DNA of 64,000 bases, taken from assembly GCA_025449115.1 (NCBI GenBank), contig JAHLKC010000048.1:184126-248125 (forward strand), given 5' to 3'. The notes beneath the pieces are model-generated. The model was given only the letters and a program-made list of their open reading frames with translations, ran no database searches and was not told where the DNA came from. The translations under genes and the position numbers were made by a program. The DNA is from Chytridium lagenaria. Lineage: Eukaryota > Chytridiomycota > Chytridiomycetes > Chytridiales > Chytridiaceae. Positions 4,157 through 56,610 of this stretch are shown in pieces; the stretch's first letter is position 1, and every line of letters begins with the position of its first letter.

Positions 4157-6799
4157 ATGACCTGGGCGGCGAATAAGACCAACCCTCTGCATGACCTTTC
4201 ATCGGATCCCAACTATCGTGACGACGATGAAAGACATTACGACGATAACAACTCTTACGACCCTCAGGGGGGTAATCAAGCTGGTGGCGATCAAGGCTGG
4301 AATGCCAACCCTGACTACAATGATCAACGTCAAATCAAACCCACATTAGGGTCCGGAAACCTTCTCCAACTCCCGCAAATGAGCGACAGCAACTGGAGGA
4401 TCAGTGTCAGTTCCTCTATCATGGGCGATGGTAGTGGTGGAAACGAAAACCTCTATCCTTCAAAGGAAGTCGTCAATCGCCTCGCAAGAGCCTCTATCAT
4501 GTCATTTGGTCACGCCAACGTAAACCGCGCATCTATCCTCATGCCAATTACTCCTCGCGCCCTCCTCGGTCGTGACGCCCCTCCACTCCCCACAAACCGT
4601 TCCCCACAACCCCGCATCCTTCCAGACCCCAAACCCGAGGCAGAAATCAACGACCCCCGTTTCTCAACCGCATCATCCGTCTCCACCTCATCTCAAGTCT
4701 ACGGTCGTCCTCCGCAGGGTGGACCGATGCAGCGAATGCATGTTGCACCACCTCGTTCACAGTTTCCTAGGGACGCAGGGAGGGTGCCGGCTGGGTTGCA
4801 ACAGTTTCGGCAGGAGAAGGAGGAGGAGGAGCAACGTCAGATTCATAGGATGAGCGCGCAGATGGCTGGGAGTATGAATTTAGGAGGTATTGAGGAGGAG
4901 CAGGCTGGGAATGGGGGATGGGCGGCGAAGAAAGATTTGGAAGGACCGACTGGATTTGAATTGTTGAGGAGGTATGGGTTGGGGGTTCTTTGTTCTGGTT
5001 ATTTACTGTTTTTTGTGTTTAGAGCAATCCTGAGTCCGGGTGCGCAGATAAATCAGGCAAGTCTGTTTCAGTACATTAAAAGCCTTTCATCTGTGGAGCT
5101 TGGGAAATTTCAACGAAAAATTCATGCTGGCGCTTTGCGTAAGTTTTCATGGTATCTTTATAATCGTTAACGTTGAGCTGGCACAAATTTAGAAATTAGA
5201 AACAACGTAACATACGCGGCGATTGAGGTAAGATTTATCAAGAGAGTGTCCTTGTCATGGGCTCACGTTTTGTAGGTTGACAGATACATCCTTGATTTTA
5301 AAAGACACCCGCAAAGATTGGGGTATCAGTGTCGGATACGTTGACTTTGGTCTCAAAATGTGCGATATTTTCAGTACTTTATCTCTGCTAATGTGATTTG
5401 CCAGCCAACGAAGCGAGGTTTCGCTTCATAACAGAGCCTGCCGATTCAAGATTTCAAATTACAGTTGACCCGCCTTCTGGAGTTTTAAACGTGAGTAACA
5501 CGTTTCACTTTATTTTTTTGCGCATAGTGTATTCATCAGTTCTATGTTGAAACAGATGCAAGGATTGATGCTAGAGTACGTTACTGTCACGATTACAATG
5601 AAAGCACCAGTTGATATCAACACGGTCGTGATTTTAGAAATCGATGGTGAGCCTTTGAATTATTTTGGTGTCCTAATCTATAATTTACCATGCAGGGGGC
5701 TACCGTCACTACCTCCTTGTCCGCCCTGTCACCGACGTCACCCAATCCACTGCAAGCCCTCGTCTCCAAAAACTCCCAGACCCTCAACCCACGTCTCAAC
5801 CCATCGTTCCCCAACAACAACCCGCATCCTACGATTCAACACCCAACACATCACCCTACACCAACACCTCCCCTGCGACACCCTCTGTCGTATCGCCTCC
5901 TGTCACCAAGTTCAGGGAACCGCCGCAAAGGAGCAGGTCGCAGCCTAATCTGAATGCGATGGAAGTGGATCTTGTAGAAGATATGATTATTTCGGGATTC
6001 CCGCATCGTGTGCCGAGGGAGTTGGCGTTGCTGAGAGGAGCTTTGATGGCGCGAGAAGGGTAAGACTTTCGGTTTTTCCTTTTTAATTTTTTTTTTTTTT
6101 TTTATTTTTTTTTTTTTAGAATTGCCGCTGAAGGTGTCTTTGAGGATCAAGGGGATCCTAATGAGGTCGAAGCCATACGGAACCGTCTGAAGCAGGGTCA
6201 ACCGGTTGGCAGCACAGATCCATACGCCATTTCTACATGTATAAAGGTAAATATTTTTATTGACATCTGTTTCTTATAACGTTAGATGTTTTTCAAAGAA
6301 TCCCAGCATCCTTTGCTTGCTGAAGTTCCGAGTTACTTGATACTTGGTGCGTATGATGAGGAGAGTGCCTGGGAGGCGTTAGGAGAGGCATCGCAGAGGA
6401 CGTTTGAGTGAGTCAACTGATTTTTGTACTTAGAGCCAAATCTGATGATTTTCGTAGCGTTATTACGTGGGTGCTTGATCTGTTGGCGGATGTTGTGTAC
6501 TATGAGGCTCAAAATGGAATGGGGGCGAGAAATATATGTATGTTTTTGGTTCTCTTTTTATTCTCCTTTTACTGCATTGACGGTGAGTTGGTGTGAATGC
6601 ATAGCTAACTCTCCATATTTTTTTGTGTTTCCTTTCTCTTCCATTTATTTTCATAGGTAATGCGTGGGCACCTGTGTTGTACTGCAATGTAGGTCCTCAG
6701 AAAGTCGACCAGATGGGGTTTATGCAAGTTTCCATGCAGTTACCCCCGTTTCTGGGGATGCTGCTAGCACGGCGTATGATGGAGCTTGATGAGTTTTAA
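4157..6799 (+). CDS. ASH (MSP-like) domain plus RhoGAP-like domain protein
   Basis: About 700 residues. The N-terminal 270 residues are hydrophilic and Pro/Asn/Gln-rich. A beta-sandwich region follows (YVDFGLKM, FRFITEPADSRFQITVDP, LEYVTVTITMKAPVDI, GYRHYLLVRP), resembling the ASH/MSP-type domain found before RhoGAP in OCRL/INPP5B-like proteins. The C-terminus (about 5990-6799) has the RhoGAP pattern: FPHRVPRELALL, IKMFFKESQHPLLAEVPSYL, ARNICNAWAPVL. The catalytic loop reads EGVFEDQGD and lacks the arginine finger expected there, so GAP activity is doubtful. Introns are short; one at about 6062-6120 is mostly poly(T). Translation may begin upstream at 4041: that frame gives a natural 38-residue leader and joins this one if one A is missing in the AAAA run at about 4152. 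Domain assignment is by eye; a targeting or scaffold role at membranes is inference. Confidence 0.62.
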
Positions 6800-7954
6800 A
6801 TGGTTCACTATTAAAAAAAGATTGATGCGCATGAATGTCAATGATAAGATGTTTGGGATGTGTCTTTATCTTGTGTATGTTGATTTATGGATGATTTTGG
6901 ATCGCTTTGGGGGGCACTGGTGAAATAAACGCGTGTTTGTTTTTAAAAATGTTTACGTTTTGCAGGTTCCTCATTTACTGTCTTGATGTATGGGAACGGG
7001 GCTTGTGGTTTTTTCTTCCCGCTATACTATACAGTACCTTTAAACCAGAATTGAATATGGGGGGTCGCATTTTGACTTTTTGGAGAGTAAAAACCTCAAT
7101 AGACGCTATTCCGCAATCCAATAGTTCGTTGTTGGAAACCATGGGCTCCTTTAGATGAGCGAACGTGAAAAAGTCAAAAAGTCCATGATGGCGACGTGCA
7201 TTATGAACTAAGACGTGTGTTCACGTCACATACAACTTGAATTTTTGATGATAAAAGAATATTGTGCATACAAAGCTTACTTAACATCAACGTCCAGTCT
7301 GGGTTTTCCCAAAAAAACAATGAGGATATGATGGGGTCTGATGAATGGGTTACGTAGGAGACGTTGGCGGTGTGGAAGAAGGGCTACACGCGTTCTCGAG
7401 TCCGAGAAAAGAAAGGTACATGCCAAACTCGACCAAAAAAATAATAACGCCAAATATAAATATAGAAAACGCGCGTATTGACGGATGCGATGTAAAAATG
7501 CTTTTGTTTTATTACAAGTGAGGGAGGACGGTGACGCGGCTGATGGACGAGTTTGCAAAAAGAGGTAAAAGGGAAAAGCGGGGGGGGGGGAACAAATGAA
7601 ACAACAAACACGAAATCACAAAGGCAGAATCCATCATGCAAAAACAGCAACAACAACAGGTACAAAAAAACTATAATATAATGGTACGAATATAAAAACT
7701 GGCAAAAGCCCCCAAAAAAAACAGCAGAATAAGAGTGCGTGGAGTGGGGGGGGGGAACGATGAACAAAGGTGTGTAGTAGCTGGCTTTTTGTGAATAGTG
7801 TCAGATGGGTATGTTTTGTTTTTTTTTTGTGCGGTTACGTGTTTTTGACTGCTTTTTGATTAGTGTTCGCCCTTAACGTCAGAGTTGCATTTGAACTCGT
7901 TAAACTGAAAGCAAAGAAATGTTATAATGTGTTTATGCAGACGAAAAAGTAGAT
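6800..7954. other. Intergenic region, no supported gene
   Basis: Convergent 3' flanks of the RhoGAP-like gene and the bZIP gene. AT-rich with several G or T runs (for example 7578-7590 and 7745-7757). Open frames here are short, low-complexity and without recognisable domains. Confidence 0.6.
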
Positions 7955-9070
7955 TTATAGGATATGTAATAGATTGTTTACCTGAGGGGAGGCTATAAAC
8001 GATTGTATCATGTTACAGCGGCATTGACGATGAAGCAAAAGTTGATTTTTAAGCAGCAGCACTTCATCCTTTAATTGTCCGACAGTGATATGGAGTTCCT
8101 TATTACGCTCAGAAAGTTCCGTAGACTTTTGCTCCAATTCTTGCATCCAAAGCTTCTTTTTTTGTCGACACTTTGAAGCTAATGCATTTACAGTTAGCGT
8201 GGAAAGCCAAAAATAATACAAAGGAAATAGTTTTTCATCCAACTCCCCCCACAAAAAAAAAACATTTAAAAAAATAAGCTCACCTGCGACACGGTTACGC
8301 TCAAGAAACTTTTTTCTCTTATCATCCTCTCCCTCCTCCTCTCTCCCAGCCCTTTTCCGCTTCCCCAACGCCTTTCCGTCCGAACCCGAAGCATCGTCTC
8401 CATCCTGTGATCCATCCGATGAAGGCGTCGGTGTTCCAAAAGACTGAGACCGGCCCCTCGAGCTCAGTGCCGAGGGTTGAGAAGGGGTTTTAGCTGGGGG
8501 TGTGAGTGATGCTGGTGATTCGGAGAGTCGTTGATTTTGGCTCGGTTCTCGTTTGTGGAGTGTCACGGAGGTGGCTGAGAGCGGAAGCGGCGGGGGAGCC
8601 GTTGGAGATGCCACCTGGGATGGTTATGTGGTTGGGTTGGGAGGATGCGTTGTTGCCGTTGCTGTTGTGGTTGTTGGTTTGAGGGTAAGGTTGGTACGAG
8701 TAGTCCTTTTGTTGCATGGAGTGAGAGTCATTGGAAATGGGCTGAGATGCAAAGCTTGCTTCAAAAGGGTTGACATCTCCATTTACCAGCCGTGTGAGAG
8801 GACCTTTAGAAGACGAAAAACGAAATGGTAAGAAAAGATAAAGGATACAAGGTGATGGTATGCAAATGCAGAAACGATTTCTCTACCTGGGGCAAACTTG
8901 ACATTGGACACCTCCATGAGCAGTCTGTTTGAAGAAGGCAGTGGGTCTGCATTGGCATGACCTAATAAAGTGTTTGATTTATTAGCATTCATTAAAGAGT
9001 GGTAGGAGTGATGTTACAAACAGAGGTGGCTGTTGGTAAAAGGAAACATACCATGTGTTGACGCTTGCAT
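7955..9070 (-). CDS. ATF/CREB-type bZIP transcription factor
   Basis: Sequence-specific nuclear transcription factor. The basic region KRKKFLERNRVAASKCRQKK is split by an intron after the NRVA segment (about 8170-8283). The leucine zipper follows with heptad leucines (WMQELEQKSTELSERN, QLKDEVLLLKNQLLLHRQC). This is close to the ATF2/Atf1 pattern, including the ending LLLHRQC. The N-terminal exons encode a DVNPFEASFA motif like the NPFE motif of fungal Atf1 proteins, then an Asn/Gln/Ser-rich activation-like segment. Start is placed at 9068-9070 (MQASTHG, donor directly after). Between the NPFE part and the bZIP part the frame changes once near 8500-8600, next to a CCCCC run, so one base is probably wrong. 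By family such factors act in stress or cAMP-linked responses; the target here is unknown. Confidence 0.85.
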
Positions 9071-9119
9071 GGTGGTGATTCCACCACCACCACTTCCTCT
9101 CCTCCTCCCATTAACATCC

Positions 9120-45810: not shown

Positions 45811-46149
45811 AGAGGACACCTTCACGCTTCAATGGGCCCGTTTACATTCGACAACGATATTAATGTAAACCTCGTGTAATGTACATTTCATTGAGCTGTC
45901 GCCCCTGCTTTTACCATGTCATCGCGCATATTTCGTGCTGAAGTCACAGCATCCATAGTCTCGAATCCAGTACTCCTTGGCGGTCTCAAATAAAGATGTT
46001 TTACAACTCTGGTATTTGCCTCAAACTCTGATTTTCTGCGATATTTCTTGTATTCTACGAAATTCTGAAAATCTCTCTTTTTCTATATTTCTTGAATGTT
46101 ACACGATTCGAAATGCTCAAAATTGCGTTTTCAGTCGACCTCCTACGGA
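45811..46149. other. Spacer between the small TIR element and the large TIR element
   Basis: No gene seen. The 60 bp next to 46150 keep faint similarity to the DNA outside the right repeat (TTCTTGAATG and GCGTTTTC blocks), so the inverted repeat may once have extended outward. Confidence 0.4.
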
Positions 46150-46350
46150 GTCTGGGACGAGGTCAATTATAAAAAGTGCTCTCTAATTAAATCGACTTTT
46201 TCAATAACTCATCAACCAGGCATCCTACACTGGCTCCCGATACAGATCTGGAATCAGCGCACCTCAGCGTTCATATGGTATGCGTTTTAGCGATTTCTAT
46301 CGGGCCGTTTTTTTTTGATGCTTCGACGAGGATCTAACCATCACTGTTCA
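46150..46350 (+). repeat. Left 201-bp terminal inverted repeat
   Basis: Matches the complement of 52340-52540 with two single-base indels and one substitution (TTTTAG here, TTTCAG there). Starts GTCTGGGACGAGGTCAATTA. It contains the ATG at 46275-46277 and the donor GTATGC directly after it. Confidence 0.92.
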
Positions 46351-49300
46351 CCACTTAACGTAGCCTCCGAAGAAGAAAAAGAATCCTAAGGCGCTGGCAA
46401 ACTTATGGCAAGGTTCCAAAAGGGCTACATATGATGTAGCTGGAACTTCTGCTGGCGAGTGCATGGATGATGTGAGACCGAATGATGATAAGGTGATGGT
46501 GCTGCATCTTAATCACTTCTTATTTTTTTTATCTGGCAGGGCTCATCATCTGCTTCCAAAGTGGAGTCTATGACGCTGCTCAGCTCCGCCGCTTCTTCCT
46601 CTCTAGAGCTGGTCGTGCATCAAGAAGAAGTTCATCCAGATACCGATCAGTTTAAGTCACTGTTGGGGCAGACGGAGAGCTTGCAGTCTCTGGTAGAAAC
46701 GGATTCCGAAGATGAGGACCTCGAGGTCGTGAACGATCCCTGGAGCTGGTGTGATATGGACATGCAAAGCCCCTCTACAAGCCGTCACCTTACACCAACT
46801 GAAGTTGCACCACCTGAGGATGAAGTCAGGGCAGCAGCAGCCATACTTGATCTGTCTATGGCTCATAGAGATTTTATCTCACCTGGGAAGGTGGCAGCAG
46901 TTAAATTGCTTTTTCTTAAGGGTAATTAAAGCTCGTATTTCATAATCTAACGTTTATCTAGGTCATGACGTTGACATTGAGCCTACCTTCGGCGAAAAAT
47001 ACCCAGCAAAACGAACGACTTCTCGAAGCCAACGAACTAGGTCGCGGCAAGAGGAAGAGGATTCCGAGTGTTAAAGATGACCTGAATCCGTTCAACAACC
47101 CATCCAATTACGGGTCATTCCACGCTGGCGTTAAGATTTTCGGTTTGGACACGACGCCATCCCATACCTTGGACCGTGAGAAGGCCAGGAAATTGGAGCA
47201 AGGGAAGGGGGTTGAGCAGATTTTCGTTGAGGGTGCTTTGGGAGATATAAAGCAGATTCGGGAATTGTGGGGTGACTTGAAAGACATTCGAGCTAAAGCG
47301 CTGAGACGGATTGAAGTCTATGACGGGGATGGTGAATGCTACGCCACTGCTTTGGAAAATTTAAAGGAGTTGGTTAAAGATATGTATTGGGAAATGTGGA
47401 AGGAGATGGATTTTTTAAAAGACAACGAAAAGGTGGATCTTGCTACGAAAGGATACTTTAAATATGTCAACATGCAAACTATTTCTGATGACGCAGTTAA
47501 TATTGTCATTAAAAGTGTTGAGAAGGAAGAAAAAACTTCAACCCCCTTGCGGCTAAGGGAACAGAGATGGCAAAGAAGGTTGAAGGACGGCTTATGTTGC
47601 GGGAAGAAGAGAAAGTCAACGACAACACGACCGACGTGACATTTTTTCGCCTGAAATCTTACCTTGAGCATTTACAACATGCAGAACATCGTCACCAATA
47701 GAATACCTGCTGCTTTCGAATGCAACCGATTTATTATTGTGTATGATAACATAGAACTTTCAACAAAACACTTTGAACAAACAGGGAAACCTGGACAGAA
47801 TGCAACAACCGTTACCAGCCAAACTCTTTGTGGTTTTTATCCTGTAACTTATGTTAATGAACAGTTGAGCGCGGAGAATCCCAAGATTCCTTTCACACTA
47901 TTGAGACCTTCAGATATTCTCCCGTCAGCTGAAGAGTTACGGTTTCAGTGGCTCTTTTGGAGACGCGATTTTCACATTCCTCTCTCAATTCTTGCCGGAT
48001 GTTTTGCGACCACCAAAATGGCTGTTTAAGCACCCTACACGCTGCCATCCCAGCGTGGAAATGGTTCCTCTTGGTCTCGAAGATGAGCGGGAGATGACTA
48101 TTGAGGGATGCATTAACGTCTTAACGAACTTAGCCAACAAGTTTAACCTTGTTGACGCATCGAAGCAGCGACTGCTATTTTTGGGTGATTGTGGCACTCT
48201 GATGACGGCTAGGAGAGCAATGCGGCAAAGAAGTTATGACTATGGCTCTCCGTATGACCGACTGAGATTCGTTCGACTTGTACCTGGTGAATTCCATTAT
48301 CGGATGCAAGTTGTTGACATATTATGTAATATGTTTTGGGGAGAAGGGTGTGAAAGTTTTGTGGCCGGTAGTTTGCGCAATTATGCTCGGAAGTTCAAGA
48401 AGCTTAAAACGCTTCCAGAAAAGGAGTTTCATTTGAAGGAGAATCTTCTCCTTGAAGCCTGGGACTGTTTTGTCATAGCCTTCTATAGAAAACTTTGTGC
48501 AGACTACCATACCGGCACCACAGTGAATGAACTTCAAACCATCACGCCTGAAACAGTGCGTGTCATTTCACAACGCATTATGAGGGCTGTAGTAGATTCA
48601 CACCAAACCATTCGCATGGAAACTCAACGAATCAAAGATGAAATTGCATTTATTAAGAAAAACGCACTCAGCAAGGCGGCAGCAACAGTTACGCTGGAAG
48701 CAAGAAAGGCAGAATTGACACCAAAAACCGACTTAAAAACCTACATGTTGCAATTCATTTGGCACATACTTCATTATAAACGCTTTCTTTCAAGTATTCG
48801 CCATGGTGACGGAGACTCTGTCATATGCATGCATCGGTTATTCTTAAGTTACTTCAAGTTTGCAGGATCCATAATTATTTTAATGAAACGGTGCGAGAAC
48901 TTGTGGAGCTCTCGTCGGTATATGATGAGCAGTCTGCGTTTGTTTCCACACAAAATCGTTTTGTCAATCCAAAGGGTAAGTGTACTTCAGTTTTCTATCA
49001 ATTCTAATTCAAATACAAGGTGCAAAAGATTCATTTTACGAAGGCGATCTTGGAATGGAATATCAAGTACGTACTGTCAAAGCCCATCTTGACAGCGACG
49101 GGGTCAACCGGAATCCCAAGCACTCACACAAATTTCACAAACATGTTTTATCGCAACCGACATTGAAGAGCAACTTATTGAAGACTTTGGCATCGAAGGC
49201 AATAACGATTATCATAAGAAGGTTGATGTCTCCAAAGACATGATGGATTTCACGGAAGATGTCTTCAGAAGTATTTCTACGGATTCCTTAACACGTAACT

Positions 49301-49433
49301 TTCAGTGGACCTGGATGTAATGAACACCTATGTAGACCTACTTCACTCGGACAATATCTGCAAAATCATAGAAGACTATCTGCCTGGAAATTACTTTAAT
49401 AATGACTTCAACACTGATAATTTTACAGAATAA
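46275..49433 (+). CDS. DUF6589-like protein of the TIR element
   Basis: The start codon is an ATG-only coding exon inside the inverted repeat (46275-46277). An 86-nt intron (46278-46363) joins it to MPPKKKKNPKALANLWQGSK. The next intron is 46493-46539, then SSASKVESMTLLSSAAS. Middle text is acidic/basic and then helical. The core resembles fungal DUF6589: FIIVYDNIELSTKHFEQTGK, QNATTVTSQTL, RLLFLGDCGTLMTARRAM, VRLVPGEFHYRMQVVDILCN, then NLLLEAWDCFVIAFYRKLCA. It ends YLPGNYFNNDFNTDNFTE at 49431-49433, followed by AATAAAATATAT. Several frame changes occur (about 47070, 47533 in a run of six A, and 47943), so the reading frame is broken as given. These could be errors or decay. Family assignment is from remembered sequence style, not a search; function is unknown. 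Confidence 0.55.
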
Positions 49434-49452
49434 TAAAATATATCTTAATTAC

Positions 49453-50521
49453 TGTGATCTTGTCTTGACCCATCCCTTCCTACCTAGTTTTGACTCAGGA
49501 GTAGGGGAGAAGAGTAACGGAGCTGCTCCAGCAGAGGAAGTCCACAGAGCTCCTAGAGACAGGATGTACTCCTGCATCCACGTGATGTTGTTGTTTTAGC
49601 GATGGTGTCGGTGAGTGATCGCGAGATTCTGCTATATAAAGGGAGAAGGGAGCACCATGCGCGGCTGGCGGGTGGTTACGCGCTGGAATACGCGCGAGAT
49701 CCCCTGGGCTTTTGCGGTGATGCCCACGCGTTAAACATGCGCGCGCTCCGGGTAGGCGCCTTATCCCCCGCCTCTTTGCGGGGAGCGTGTTTAGTATCTT
49801 CTAAGTTGACTTACCTTGCTAATAAACTATTATGAGCACCAGATCGTCTCCTGGCGATCGGGGAGGGCTGAAAGCCTCCTTGCCTTCCTGCTATGGCACC
49901 TTTTGGAACGTGATGATCTCATTGCCTCACGAGCTAGCACAGGGTAACCTCACTCATCACCTGCCTGCAGCGTCGATCACCGGCTTGGGGATCATCAGAG
50001 GTGGAATGTAGTCGACCAAGCCTAATCTAAAGGACACTGACAATGAGGAGGACCTTTGGGCTCCCATCGCAGCCTTCTACTTCAAACAGCTGGATTGCGG
50101 CTTCACCAGGTGGCAGGGGGTAGAGGGGTGGGCTGCTGTCCAAGTAGGAATGAAGGGAGATCAAGGCGCGAGGCCACGCGCGAGGCCACGCGGGAGGCCA
50201 TGCGCGTGGAATAGAGGCTTCACCATGTGGCAGGGGGTAGAGGTGTGGGCTGCCGTCAAAGAAGGAATGAAGGGAGATCAAGGTGCGAGGCCACGCGCCA
50301 GGCCACGCGCGTGGGATAGAGGATGGGGGATTAACTCAATATCAACTATTTGGTTCAACAGGCCACCTCCTTTAGTAATAACCCGATAAACGTGGGACTC
50401 TATAGTACAGATTCCATATAATACGAAAATACACGTCGACATGGGATATAACAGAACTCAACGGACTTAGACAAAATGTCCCTATGAGCCATTGGCCATG
50501 TGAATAATGTAATTCTTCACA
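49453..50521 (+). mobile_element. LTR-like repeat, copy 1 (between the two convergent genes)
   Basis: Starts TGTGATCTTGTCTTGACCCA and ends AATTCTTCACA: TG...CA with TGTG/CACA ends. It shares long blocks with 55891-56610 in the same orientation, for example GAGCACCAGATC, GCTATGGCACCTTTTGGAAC and GATATAACAGAACTCAACGG. It has TATA-like CTATATAAAGG at 49632 and AATAAA at about 49821. It begins 20 bp after one gene's stop and ends 16 bp before the other's. No flanking duplication was found. Confidence 0.65.
50099..50325. repeat. GC-rich tandem duplication inside LTR-like copy 1
   Basis: Two copies of a unit of about 117 bp beginning GGCTTCACCA (50099 and 50216). Within each, an 11-12 bp motif AGGCCACGCGC is repeated two to three times. 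It is absent from copy 2 apart from one short remnant. Confidence 0.8.
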
Positions 50522-50536
50522 AAAAAAATATATATT

Positions 50537-52415
50537 TTATTTGTCGACTATCCCATGAAGCGTATAATATTCGTCCAAAAAGTAGGTTTTGATAAATTGG
50601 TAAAATCCAACGTCAACAGCCCCTGGGAGAATGTAGTAGGTTCGGTAGGAATTTGCAACTATAGAGGTCATCGCGGTTTTGGTGCATATGAAATCAGGTG
50701 TCCACGGATGCGTTGATGATAAAGTCATAAAGAGGTATGCGTACCGCTCCCGGATAGCTAGTAATTCTGTGATCAGTTTGGTGTCAAAATCCTGCAGCTC
50801 CCGCGGTTTTCGAACCCTTGGCCCCTTGGGTTTTCGGCGACCTGTTTCTGCTATACATGGACGGTCGCAGACATCACAACTTAAACTAATTAGAGAACAA
50901 AGAAGGCAAAAAGCTTAGTGCTTACCATTTATACTGTACATCTGTTACATCTTGGTCTGTTGAGGAAGCTTGTGTGTGAACCAAAACATCCTCATTGATT
51001 GTATTGCTCAACAAAAACCTACGGCGGCAGGTTTCCGAGGTAACATATGCGTTGATCAATGGATTGGCACCAGATTTCATGAAAGTGGAGCCAAAAAGAA
51101 ATATATGCTTAGCTGGCTTTCCATCACGACCTCCTCTCCCAGCCTCTTGGATGAAGTCCGAGAATATGCTGGGGGCCTTGTAATGAACCACGGTTCGTAT
51201 TCCCTTTGCGTTAACTCCAATTCCCAGCGCAGACGTTGAAACTACAACGTACAAATCTTCAGATCGTAATATAGACATAATCTTCTTCTTGTGCGCTTCA
51301 GATACTGATGTAAACATGGGATGAACTCCAAGCTTGAGAGACCCGTCGTGAGTCCCCGCGTGCTTTCTCAAATGGTCCACTATATCCAAAAGGGTTTGCC
51401 GGTCATTGCAAAAAATGATGGCGGGAAGTACAGCCGTATCCTTGGTTTGCAATGCAGTCACCATGAAATCCAATGTGTCCTACTACCGTAAGAAAGTAAC
51501 ACATAATTAAACTTTACCTCCATTGATTTCTTTTTTTTAACCACCATGTAGAACAGTTCTCTCCGATTCACATCTCCAACAAGTCTGTTCACGTTGGCAT
51601 CTTTCAATCCCAGCAAACTGAACATCTCCTTCACACCAGCTGGAGTAATTGTTGCTGTGCACATGCACATAGGAACGTTGGGATGCCATATTTTGATCTG
51701 GTCAGTGCTGAGGTATGATGGGCGGTATTCTAGTCCATGGTCAACTATGCAATGAGCCTCATCAATTACAACACATATAACGTGAGCGGCTCTTAAAGAG
51801 ATCCCACGCTGTTTCAAAAAGGTATTCGGGTGACATCCAGATGATGCTGAGCTCGTTATCCTTCCATGCCCTCAAACCGTCATTGCTGGCATCCAGCGAC
51901 CCCAGCGCAGCTCCACTTAGTTTGTGGATGCCATTGAATTTGCTAATTGGAAAGATGGATTCTTTAGGCGGTTTGAATAGTTTTATTTTAGCTTTATAAT
52001 CATATCAGTTGTGTTGGTGCCCATTAATACTTACCGTTGAAGTCAGAAACATGATCAGCCATTAAGCCTTACAGAGGAGACACCACAACCACCTCTTTCT
52101 TGTCGCTGATAACCAAACCGACAAGCAAAATTAGGGTGAAAGCCCATGTTTTACCCGACCCCGTTCCTTGAATGCACAGAGTATCGTGACCACTTAAAAC
52201 TGAGTAAACAACATTCTTTTGGAACTCCCGTGAAACACAACCCAGTATTTGAAGGCTAAACATATCACATAACATCCGTGAGTGCTCGAGACAAAGGGGA
52301 TTCCAGGTGGTATTCCAGGTGGTATTCAGGTCCTCCGACTGAACAGTGATGGTTAGATCCTCGTCGAAGCATCAAAAAAAAACGGCCCGATAGAAATCGC
52401 TGAAACGCATACCAT
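50537..52415 (-). CDS. RecQ-like DEAH helicase of the TIR element
   Basis: Superfamily 2 DNA helicase. The start codon (52413-52415) lies inside the right inverted repeat and is followed at once by donor GTATGC; a 74-nt intron (52339-52412) joins it to SEDLNTTWNTTWNPLCLEHS. Motifs in order: Walker A QGTGSGKTWAF, motif Ia VVVVSPL, MSPEYLF, DEAH box VVIDEAHCIVDHG with YRPSYLST, TATIT (motif III), AIIFCNDRQTLLDIV (motif IV), VVSTSALGIGVNAKGIRTVV (motif V), QEAGRGGRDGKPA (motif VI). The Zn-binding remnant is ETCRRRF with CDVCDRPC. It ends at 50537 with TLHGIVDK. There is a stop after VVVSPL (about 52085) and a frame change in a T run near 51830, so the copy may be broken. It resembles telomere-linked and element-borne fungal RecQ helicases. 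Confidence 0.82.
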
Positions 52416-52540
52416 ATGAACGCTGAGGTTGCGCTGATTCCAGATCTGTATCGGGAGCCAGTGTAGGATGCCTGGTTGATGAGTTATGAAAAAGTCGATT
52501 TAATTAGAGAGCACTTTTTATAATTGACCTCGTCCCAGAC
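52340..52540 (-). repeat. Right 201-bp terminal inverted repeat
   Basis: Complement of 46150-46350. Its inner end (52339-52340) is exactly the splice-acceptor AG of the helicase gene's first intron; unique sequence begins with the second exon at 52338. Confidence 0.92.
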
Positions 52541-53990
52541 CCTCTACGAGGAAAACCGAATTGGGAAATTCAGGAATTTTGCTGATCGTTAACATCAGAA
52601 AACAAAAGATCATAGATATTCACAAGATCGGTTTATTGAAAAATTCAAGTACCTCAGTGGGGATCTGGATCCGAGACTACAGCATCCACCTTTACTTCTT
52701 CCGGTTGACAAGCTTTCATGTTTGGTGGCTTGTTGACCAGGAGGAAACTTCGAATGGAAAGAAAAAAACAGTAGCGGAGAAAGAAATGAGAGAAAGCTTA
52801 TAAAAGAGGAACTCTCCTTTATCGGCCTTTCCTCAGCTTCTTCCACACTCACTCCCCAGTTTGTTTGTTTTTAATTATATGAAAATTAGAATTGAAAAAG
52901 AAATAACGCAATTTAAAAAAATCCACGAGCATTCCCCTCTGTTTTTTACAGTTTGCTCTGTTCCCAGCCATTCCCTCCATGTTACCCTTATTCCAGCTCC
53001 AATGCTAATCAGCATTTCCACACCCACATTCATCCTACCGTCTTTTTCCCCCCCTGTTTCTTTCACAAATCCTCTTTAAAAGAAACCCTTCCTACTGAAC
53101 GATGGTTTGGATATCTACGGCTCAAGCATGCCTTGGGCTGGTGCGTTTCTTGTCGCGCTTTTTTCAAATAGCAAGCCTGGCTCCGTGGACAAAGAAAAGT
53201 TAAATACTGTATGATTTTATATAATTTTGACAATGGTTCTTCCCTGGATCGTTATGGCATTGACGGTGTCCTGATGAGATTTTTTACAGGACTCATCAAG
53301 CAATCTTCAATATCAATAGAAAACCTGCATCTCCTAACGTTAAGCAGCTGACTGCCATTGAGAGACGCCCAAATTGCTGACTCTCATTTTATAGATGACA
53401 AATTTGGATTGCCTCAAGACTGCATGTATCAAGTGACTGCTATCAACGCAACGTCTGGTGAAAGAATACATGTGAGATCCTGTCGCGCGCTCCTTGAGCT
53501 TTGTGTCCAAAGTAGCTAATCATAAGCTGTAAATATGACATGTCTAGAAAAGGCTAGCAATAATCAGTTGGAGCTATTACAGTCAATATTAATCGTATGA
53601 ATTTAAGGTGTGAAGATTGTTGCTGTGTTCTACATTTCAGTACTCCTGGGCTCCCCTTATCTTCTTGTATGCCTGCAGGATTTAGGATGGTGGTGGTGGG
53701 GATTCTGGTTCCTCTTTTGCAACAAGTTGTTCTTTAAGATATCTTTGAGAAATTTAAAGATAACCTCACCAAGAGGTATTCATGCGTTGCTTATATAGAC
53801 CTTGTTCTGTTGTTGTTATGTGCTTGTTTGCGTTCCACTCTTTTCCCTCTTGGGGTTTTCATAGTTTTTCCTCATATACAGTAGAGGTTTTTATAAAGAA
53901 AGGGCGGTCAATGTGGTATTCCAACTTATGACATGCTTACACGTTGGTGAAGATGCTTGTTGTTGTTGTTTGAATCCATTTTTTTTAAAA
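52541..53990. other. Repeat-rich flank, no supported gene
   Basis: AT-rich DNA with short frames lacking domains. It is outside the large TIR element, and no coding exon was recognised. Confidence 0.5.
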
Positions 53991-55890: not shown

Positions 55891-56610
55891 TGTGGTCTTC
55901 TCTTGACCCATCCCTCCCTACCTAGCTTTGACTAGGGGGAGGGGAGAAGAGTAAAGGAGTTGCTCCAGCAGAGAGTCCACAGAGCACCTAGGGACAAGAT
56001 GTCTCACGTGTTAGTATTTTCTATGTTAATTTACCTTGCTAATAAACAAATATGAGCACCAGATCATTTCTTGGAAATTGCTATGGCACCTTTTGGAACG
56101 TGATGATTGCGTTGCCTCACAAGCTAGCACAGGGTAACCTCACTCATCACCTGCCTACAGCGTCGATCACCAGCTCGGGAATCATCAGAGGTGGACTGTA
56201 GCCAACCAAGCCTAAGCAATTGGGCTGCCATCCAAGAAGGAGTGAAGGGAGACCACTGCAAGGCCACGTGCGTGAGATAGAGGATGGGATCAACTCCATA
56301 TTAACTACGTAATTAAACAGGTGCAAATTAAATCAAGAAATCTCTCATATTAAAGTAATACACAAAATGTAAATAAACAATAGACACAACACATGCACAC
56401 ACATAAACAGCACATATGCGCGCCACTTCCTTCAATAAAAATCCTTTAAATGTGGGGAAAAGGCATTTTTAAAAATTCCAGAGGGAAAAGAAGGGAGGAT
56501 TCAATATGACACATAAATATACGCGTTGACGCAGGATATAACAGAACTCAACGGACTTAGATAAATGTACTTTTGAGCTATAGGCCATGTGAATAATGCA
56601 ATTCTTCACA
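55891..56610 (+). mobile_element. Solo LTR-like repeat, copy 2
   Basis: Starts TGTGGTCTTCTCTTGACCCA and ends ATTCTTCACA, matching copy 1 at 49453-50521 with about 350 bp of internal deletion. It is flanked by TAGT on both sides (55887-55890 and 56611-56614), a short target-site duplication as expected for a solo LTR. Confidence 0.7.

Follow-up and report, generated by a model that had tools for sequence, protein, structure and literature searches.

The question raised by a locus of the chytrid Chytridium lagenaria (Chytridiomycota) is what kind of element is formed by two long inverted repeats that enclose a DUF6589-like gene and a RecQ-type helicase gene. The stretch of DNA analysed (the window) comprises 64,000 nucleotides of contig JAHLKC010000048.1, and the coordinates of the element are counted from the window start. 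A sequence-only reading had proposed an undescribed mobile element bounded by the repeats. The locus is very likely a DNA transposon that moves by cut and paste and belongs to the AcademH type of the Academ superfamily; it represents family 1, one of the two families found in this fungus. A repeat that had been puzzling is thereby resolved into a defined transposon, for which ends and target duplications are established and which has both non-autonomous copies and a sister family.

Ends, target site duplications and copies

The inverted repeats are real. In one gapped alignment, 46139–46350 and 52551–52340 match over 212 bp with 96.7% identity; the arm segments 46261–46350/52340–52429 and 46198–46261/52430–52493 are 99% and 97% identical, and a weaker outward extension (46111–46203/52487–52579) is 82% identical. 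The same arms recur elsewhere in the assembly of Chytridium lagenaria (41.9 Mb, 356 contigs), so that their pairing is not due to chance. The left arm with its neighbourhood, used as a query against this assembly, gave 12 matches, and the fetched copies were then aligned; they are designated below by their contigs (C86, C9, C30, C194, C45, C78, etc.). Homology between copies passes beyond the arms and halts at 45956 and 52679, where a 9-bp duplication begins, and the true extent of the window element is therefore 6.72 kb. The repeats, previously taken as 201-bp boundaries, are rejected as the ends of the element because copy homology and duplications lie farther out, by 183 bp on the left and 128 bp on the right. 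They are subterminal, sitting just inside the ends.

Family 1 has terminal inverted repeats (TIRs) of 15 bp, TAGTCTCG(A/G)ATCCAG, with one base differing between the ends; the element starts with TAGTCTCGAATCC... at the left, and its right end, inverted, reads TAGTCTCGGATCC.... With A or G allowed at the one position, this 15-mer occurs 19 times in the assembly, compared with 0.14 occurrences expected from window composition and none for the reversed control. The left terminus of C86 carries one additional base and for that reason is absent from the 19 exact matches.

The same 9-bp sequence, CAGCATCCA, stands on either side of the window element as an exact target duplication. Exact and mutually different 9-bp duplications flank all six two-ended family-1 copies found, the other five being GTTGATATC (C86), CTAGAGAGT (C9), AGAGTAGAC (C30), GAAAACCAT (C194) and CCCCAATTC (C45). 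The chance of an exact 9-bp match between flanks, calculated from window composition, is about 4e-6 per site. Common ends, 9-bp duplications and dispersed copies bear out the suggestion of a mobile element, including the target duplications that it had led one to expect.

The assembly search found the repeat and the gene pair together elsewhere. C86 is the only other long family-1 copy found, and its main segments are 96.6–99.0% identical to the window. C9 and C30 harbor 1.48-kb forms with one common internal deletion junction and different target duplications, which indicates that the deleted form moved after the deletion. The copies in C194 (314 bp) and C45 (243 bp) are the size of miniature inverted-repeat transposable elements (MITEs) and contain the outer end sequence only, both arms being absent. 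Dispensability of the arms is not claimed from these two copies, each junction having been observed a single time and the deletion perhaps having occurred in place. One-ended or fragmentary pieces with a right terminus are located at C33:140571, C8, C33:299774 and C20, and pieces without it at C78:12086, C14 and C112.

Two side observations concern these copies. The outer flanks of the right-end fragments at C33:299774 (L051) and C20:147301 (L052) are nearly identical, which suggests that they were copied together within another repeat. A 6.4-kb insert (L033, C30:14601–21200) splits the C30 copy; its 590-bp direct repeats, 99.5% identical to each other, and its 5-bp duplication are what a long terminal repeat (LTR) retroelement would show.

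Two convergent genes

The two convergent genes reported between the repeats are recognized by Pfam. The DUF6589 (PF20231) profile matches 48001–48867 on the + strand (E 4e-25), in a frame underlain by the annotated protein BC829DRAFT_216011 of Chytridium lagenaria, and the gene on the − strand carries DEAD and Helicase_C domains. In Pfam scans of 8 of the 15 window open reading frames (ORFs) and 8 of the 41 ORFs of C86, DUF6589 was the sole transposase-candidate family above the cut-off, and no nuclease family passed it. DUF6589 is carried in Pfam as a family of unknown function, and its place in this element points to a role in transposition. The locus had been described as having no recognisable transposase, with the DUF6589-like protein as a candidate for the mobilising enzyme. 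The latter is probably right: this protein is the best candidate and most likely the element's transposase, which leaves the former statement unsupported.

Relative to C86, the window DUF6589 gene is broken, with about 240 bp absent near 47676 and a frame change. C86 retains an open stretch of 700 aa, and the following frames contain further weak C-terminal profile pieces (16.9 and 18.1 bits). Of 7999 candidates scored, no protein matched the 700-aa stretch at E ≤ 0.001, and the sole match of the window frame at E ≤ 1 among 2355 candidates was the annotated protein of the same contig. A search of viral contigs for DUF6589 relatives gave three pattern matches, none of them confirmed. As no relatives were recovered in these searches, there was no alignment for a good fold prediction. 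DUF6589 is named in no open-licence literature found, and PF20231 gave only an unrelated match, which is not proof of absence.

The best NCBIfam matches of the helicase pieces are TIGR00614 (recQ_fam) and TIGR01389, below the whole-protein cut-offs. Among PDB sequences, RecQ and WRN were the best matches, followed by other RecQ-family (BLM) and DEAD-box helicases. A protein search yielded 21 proteins, two from Chytridium lagenaria and 19 distant ones, three of them RecQ-named, and gave no help in placing the element. The helicase matches in C86 contain stops, and in the assembly each of the three long copies examined (window, C86 and C78) has at least one of its two genes interrupted.

A second family

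The 15-mer search found the family-1 terminus motif facing inward at both ends of a second element, C78:91169–102344. The termini of this single representative of family 2 are identical over 18 bp, and its flanks carry a 9-bp duplication, CTGATCTCC. When joined, the flanks align with other members of a dispersed repeat without a break at the junction (L048, 91%; L047, 91% and 86%; L015, 89%), in alignments of 247–312 bases that hold a single 9-mer, one base different. Judged by sequence, these matches represent empty sites by paralogy. The sequence-only reading had called for a search for empty sites, and these were obtained in paralogous form and for the sister family.

The C78 element encodes a transposase-like protein about 30–38% identical to the C86 DUF6589 protein; the motifs YDN(I/V)E and GDCGT, catalytic candidates only, are common to the DUF6589-like proteins of both families. 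The convergent gene encodes a RecQ-type helicase 47% identical to the window helicase over the matched piece, so that a superfamily 2 (SF2) helicase of this type is encoded within the elements of both families. Related helicases are found at the starts of C240 (46%) and C273 (52%), the former with an exact terminus.

The helicase copies of this second family (L030, C240:1–10000; L031, C273:1–10000; L032, C78:97001–106000) are 98–99% identical over 1.85 kb, and two of them begin at contig ends. Near the helicase end in L031, two long overlapping frames of 464 and 363 aa lie at 6725–9102 on the − strand; they were considered as a tyrosine recombinase, and no Pfam family matched them above the cut-off. 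In the first 10 kb of C240 and C273 (L030 and L031) there is no TTAGGGTTAGGG or CCCTAACCCTAA; tandem TTAGGG, which we take to be the telomere repeat of chytrids, is thus absent there, which speaks against a subtelomeric repeat.

Subterminal inverted repeats

The arms of family 1 are located at the 5′ ends of both genes. In family 2, the arms lie 112–333 from the left end and 123–347 from the right end and are 86.7% alike; the helicase frame reads through the right arm, and the left arm codes for the same initial peptide until its own frame is broken. In family 1, an uninterrupted N-terminal peptide common to both genes was not demonstrated. Rather than forming the element end, the subterminal repeat most likely provides the two convergent genes with a common promoter and 5′ region.

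In the tree of family-1 arms, four left arms cluster together (support 0.94). Left and right arms have fixed differences at four outer sites, and a few inner sites are common across arms. Full homogenisation of the arms is not upheld in family 1, as left arms group with left arms; some homogenisation within the element is possible. Between the families, the arms have no significant DNA similarity (best E 0.46); in both they are about 210–225 bp long, located at about the same position, and alike within the family (97% and 87%). Such a pattern would require homogenisation within the element or repeated re-duplication. A tentative and rather doubtful proposal is that the long subterminal repeat is a functional and conserved part of elements of this lineage, namely a duplicated module of promoter and N-terminal coding sequence that transposase and helicase have in common. 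If so, it could couple the expression of both proteins or give both one N-terminal docking segment. This raises a testable question, the co-regulation of proteins in two-gene transposons, and the shared 5′ module is the part of the element most worth following.

Table 1. Features of the family-1 element in the window
Feature	Position	Strand	Basis or remark
Left 9-bp target site duplication, CAGCATCCA	45947..45955	.	identical to 52680–52688
Left terminus, TAGTCTCGAATCCAG	45956..45970	+	start of inter-copy homology; 15-mer count
Left outer subterminal region, mostly retained in MITE-sized copies	45971..46138	+	copy alignments
Left arm of subterminal inverted repeat, holds TATAAAAA at 46168; putative promoter/5′ region of transposase gene	46139..46350	+	
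DUF6589-like (putative transposase) gene, broken in window copy; outer limits approximate	46513..49440	+	PF20231 profile, C86 open stretch
Dispersed repeat between the two genes	49451..50521	.	at least 135 matches (40 of 249 candidates scored), more than one in each copy
RecQ-type SF2 helicase gene with several exons and an interrupted frame; limits taken from the open frames	50537..52371	−	DEAD, Helicase_C, NCBIfam, PDB
Right arm of subterminal inverted repeat; putative promoter/5′ region of helicase gene	52340..52551	−	
Right outer subterminal region	52552..52664	+	copy alignments
Right terminus, TAGTCTCGGATCCAG on − strand	52665..52679	−	copy alignments, 15-mer search
Right 9-bp target site duplication, CAGCATCCA	52680..52688	.	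identical to left copy

The dispersed repeat between the genes is of high copy number and is also present at about 55891–56610 of the window. It begins with TGTGA and ends with TCACA, and is perhaps a solo LTR or another non-autonomous repeat.

Classification and proposed mechanism

The AcademH lineage was reportedly defined by Kojima in 2020. A DUF6589 gene, a RecQ helicase, TIRs and 9-bp duplications together fit this type, and the layout is therefore not new. Statements on published elements that carry a paper identifier come from excerpts of that paper. The Academ superfamily is among those that encode a DDD/E transposase (PMC9587614), and target duplications are 9 or 10 bp in AcademH and 3–4 bp in AcademX (PMC10045372). 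Fungal Academ copies bear DEAD and recQ_fam helicase domains, and annotation often treats them as genes of the host (PMC6416283); DEAD/Helicase_C domains are attributed to AcademH, which is reported at low copy number from Basidiomycota, Ascomycota and Mucoromycota (PMC10799480). TIR transposons that bear a helicase are already a known kind, and the idea of an undescribed layout is not borne out, as the excerpts describe the combination of a DDD/E transposase and a RecQ-type helicase for AcademH and for some Kolobok elements.

Possibly new are the occurrence of AcademH in a chytrid, the link between DUF6589 and transposase, and the apparent inclusion of the 5′ portions of the two genes in subterminal repeats. 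As far as the consulted literature goes, AcademH-type elements are extended to Chytridiomycota: the excerpts of open-licence literature on Academ and Chytridiomycota transposons report no chytrid Academ, and no open-licence literature was found on Chytridium lagenaria transposable elements, neither of which is proof of absence.

In the proposed mechanism, the DUF6589 protein would act as a DDD/E transposase that recognises the short termini together with outer subterminal sequence and then excises the element. The excised element would be joined to a staggered cut, gap repair leaving the 9-bp duplication, and the convergently encoded RecQ helicase may unwind or process transposition or repair intermediates.

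Several results weigh against this interpretation. The window and C86 copies both exit the DUF6589 frame near the same place, through an intron or an inherited lesion. The DUF6589 profile is weak in C78 (15.6 bits, where the cut-off is 27, for one of the four pieces scanned), and a whole-genome PF20231 search matched only the two family-1 loci, without C78. Single-sequence AlphaFold modelling of the DUF6589 protein gave a predicted local distance difference test (pLDDT) value of 37.6, too low to judge a DDE/RNase H fold. Finally, the filing under AcademH relies on published descriptions rather than on a comparison with Academ transposase sequences.

This lack of a direct homology comparison, together with the Pfam status of DUF6589 and the silence of the open-licence literature on it, lends something to the improbable alternative of a new superfamily, in which a DUF6589 transposase unrelated to Academ would have acquired both its RecQ helicase and its 9-bp stagger independently; however, the kind of helicase, the length of the duplications, the TIRs and the fungal host are all as described in the excerpts for AcademH or fungal Academ. 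A Kolobok-type transposon with a RecQ helicase, KolobokH, is more improbable still. The Kolobok target duplication is TTAA; none of the seven duplications is TTAA and all are 9 bp, which speaks against Kolobok, and in the Pfam scans made no transposase-candidate family but DUF6589 was above the cut-off, the presence of a Kolobok model in Pfam not having been checked. On the other side, KolobokH encodes a RecQ helicase and has so far been found only in fungi, and in Kolobok-1_CCri the RecQ gene occupies the complementary strand (PMC9587614). Hardly credible are two separately anchored single-copy host genes in an inverted repeat of chance or segmental origin, or a subtelomeric RecQ repeat resembling the telomere-linked helicases of fungi: subtelomeric RecQ families are known in fungi (excerpt of PMC4522978) and two helicase copies here begin at contig ends, but common ends, deletion derivatives, empty sites, copies with 9-bp duplications inside contigs and the gene pair repeated in a second family contradict both.

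Comparison with known systems

The element resembles KolobokH and Kolobok-1_CCri in combining a putative DDD/E transposase with a RecQ helicase, encoded on the complementary strand in Kolobok-1_CCri (PMC9587614), and differs from Kolobok in its 9-bp duplications; the scans made also gave no indication of a Kolobok transposase. With AcademX it shares the superfamily; AcademX carries a nuclease instead of a helicase (PMC10045372), whereas the window element has a helicase, no nuclease seen in the ORFs scanned, and 9-bp rather than 3–4-bp duplications. The likeness to AcademH, as excerpted, is closest: a DEAD/Helicase_C helicase, 9-bp target duplications, low copy number, a fungal host, a transposase candidate and TIRs as expected of a DDD/E cut-and-paste transposon. 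Unlike the hosts reported for AcademH in Basidiomycota, Ascomycota and Mucoromycota, the host here is a chytrid, and unlike AcademH as described, the transposase candidate is detected as Pfam DUF6589. Compared with AcademH as presented in the citing papers, the element has subterminal inverted repeats with the 5′ parts of both genes, and these arms, lying inside the ends and apparently supplying both genes with the same starting region, are its most unusual trait.

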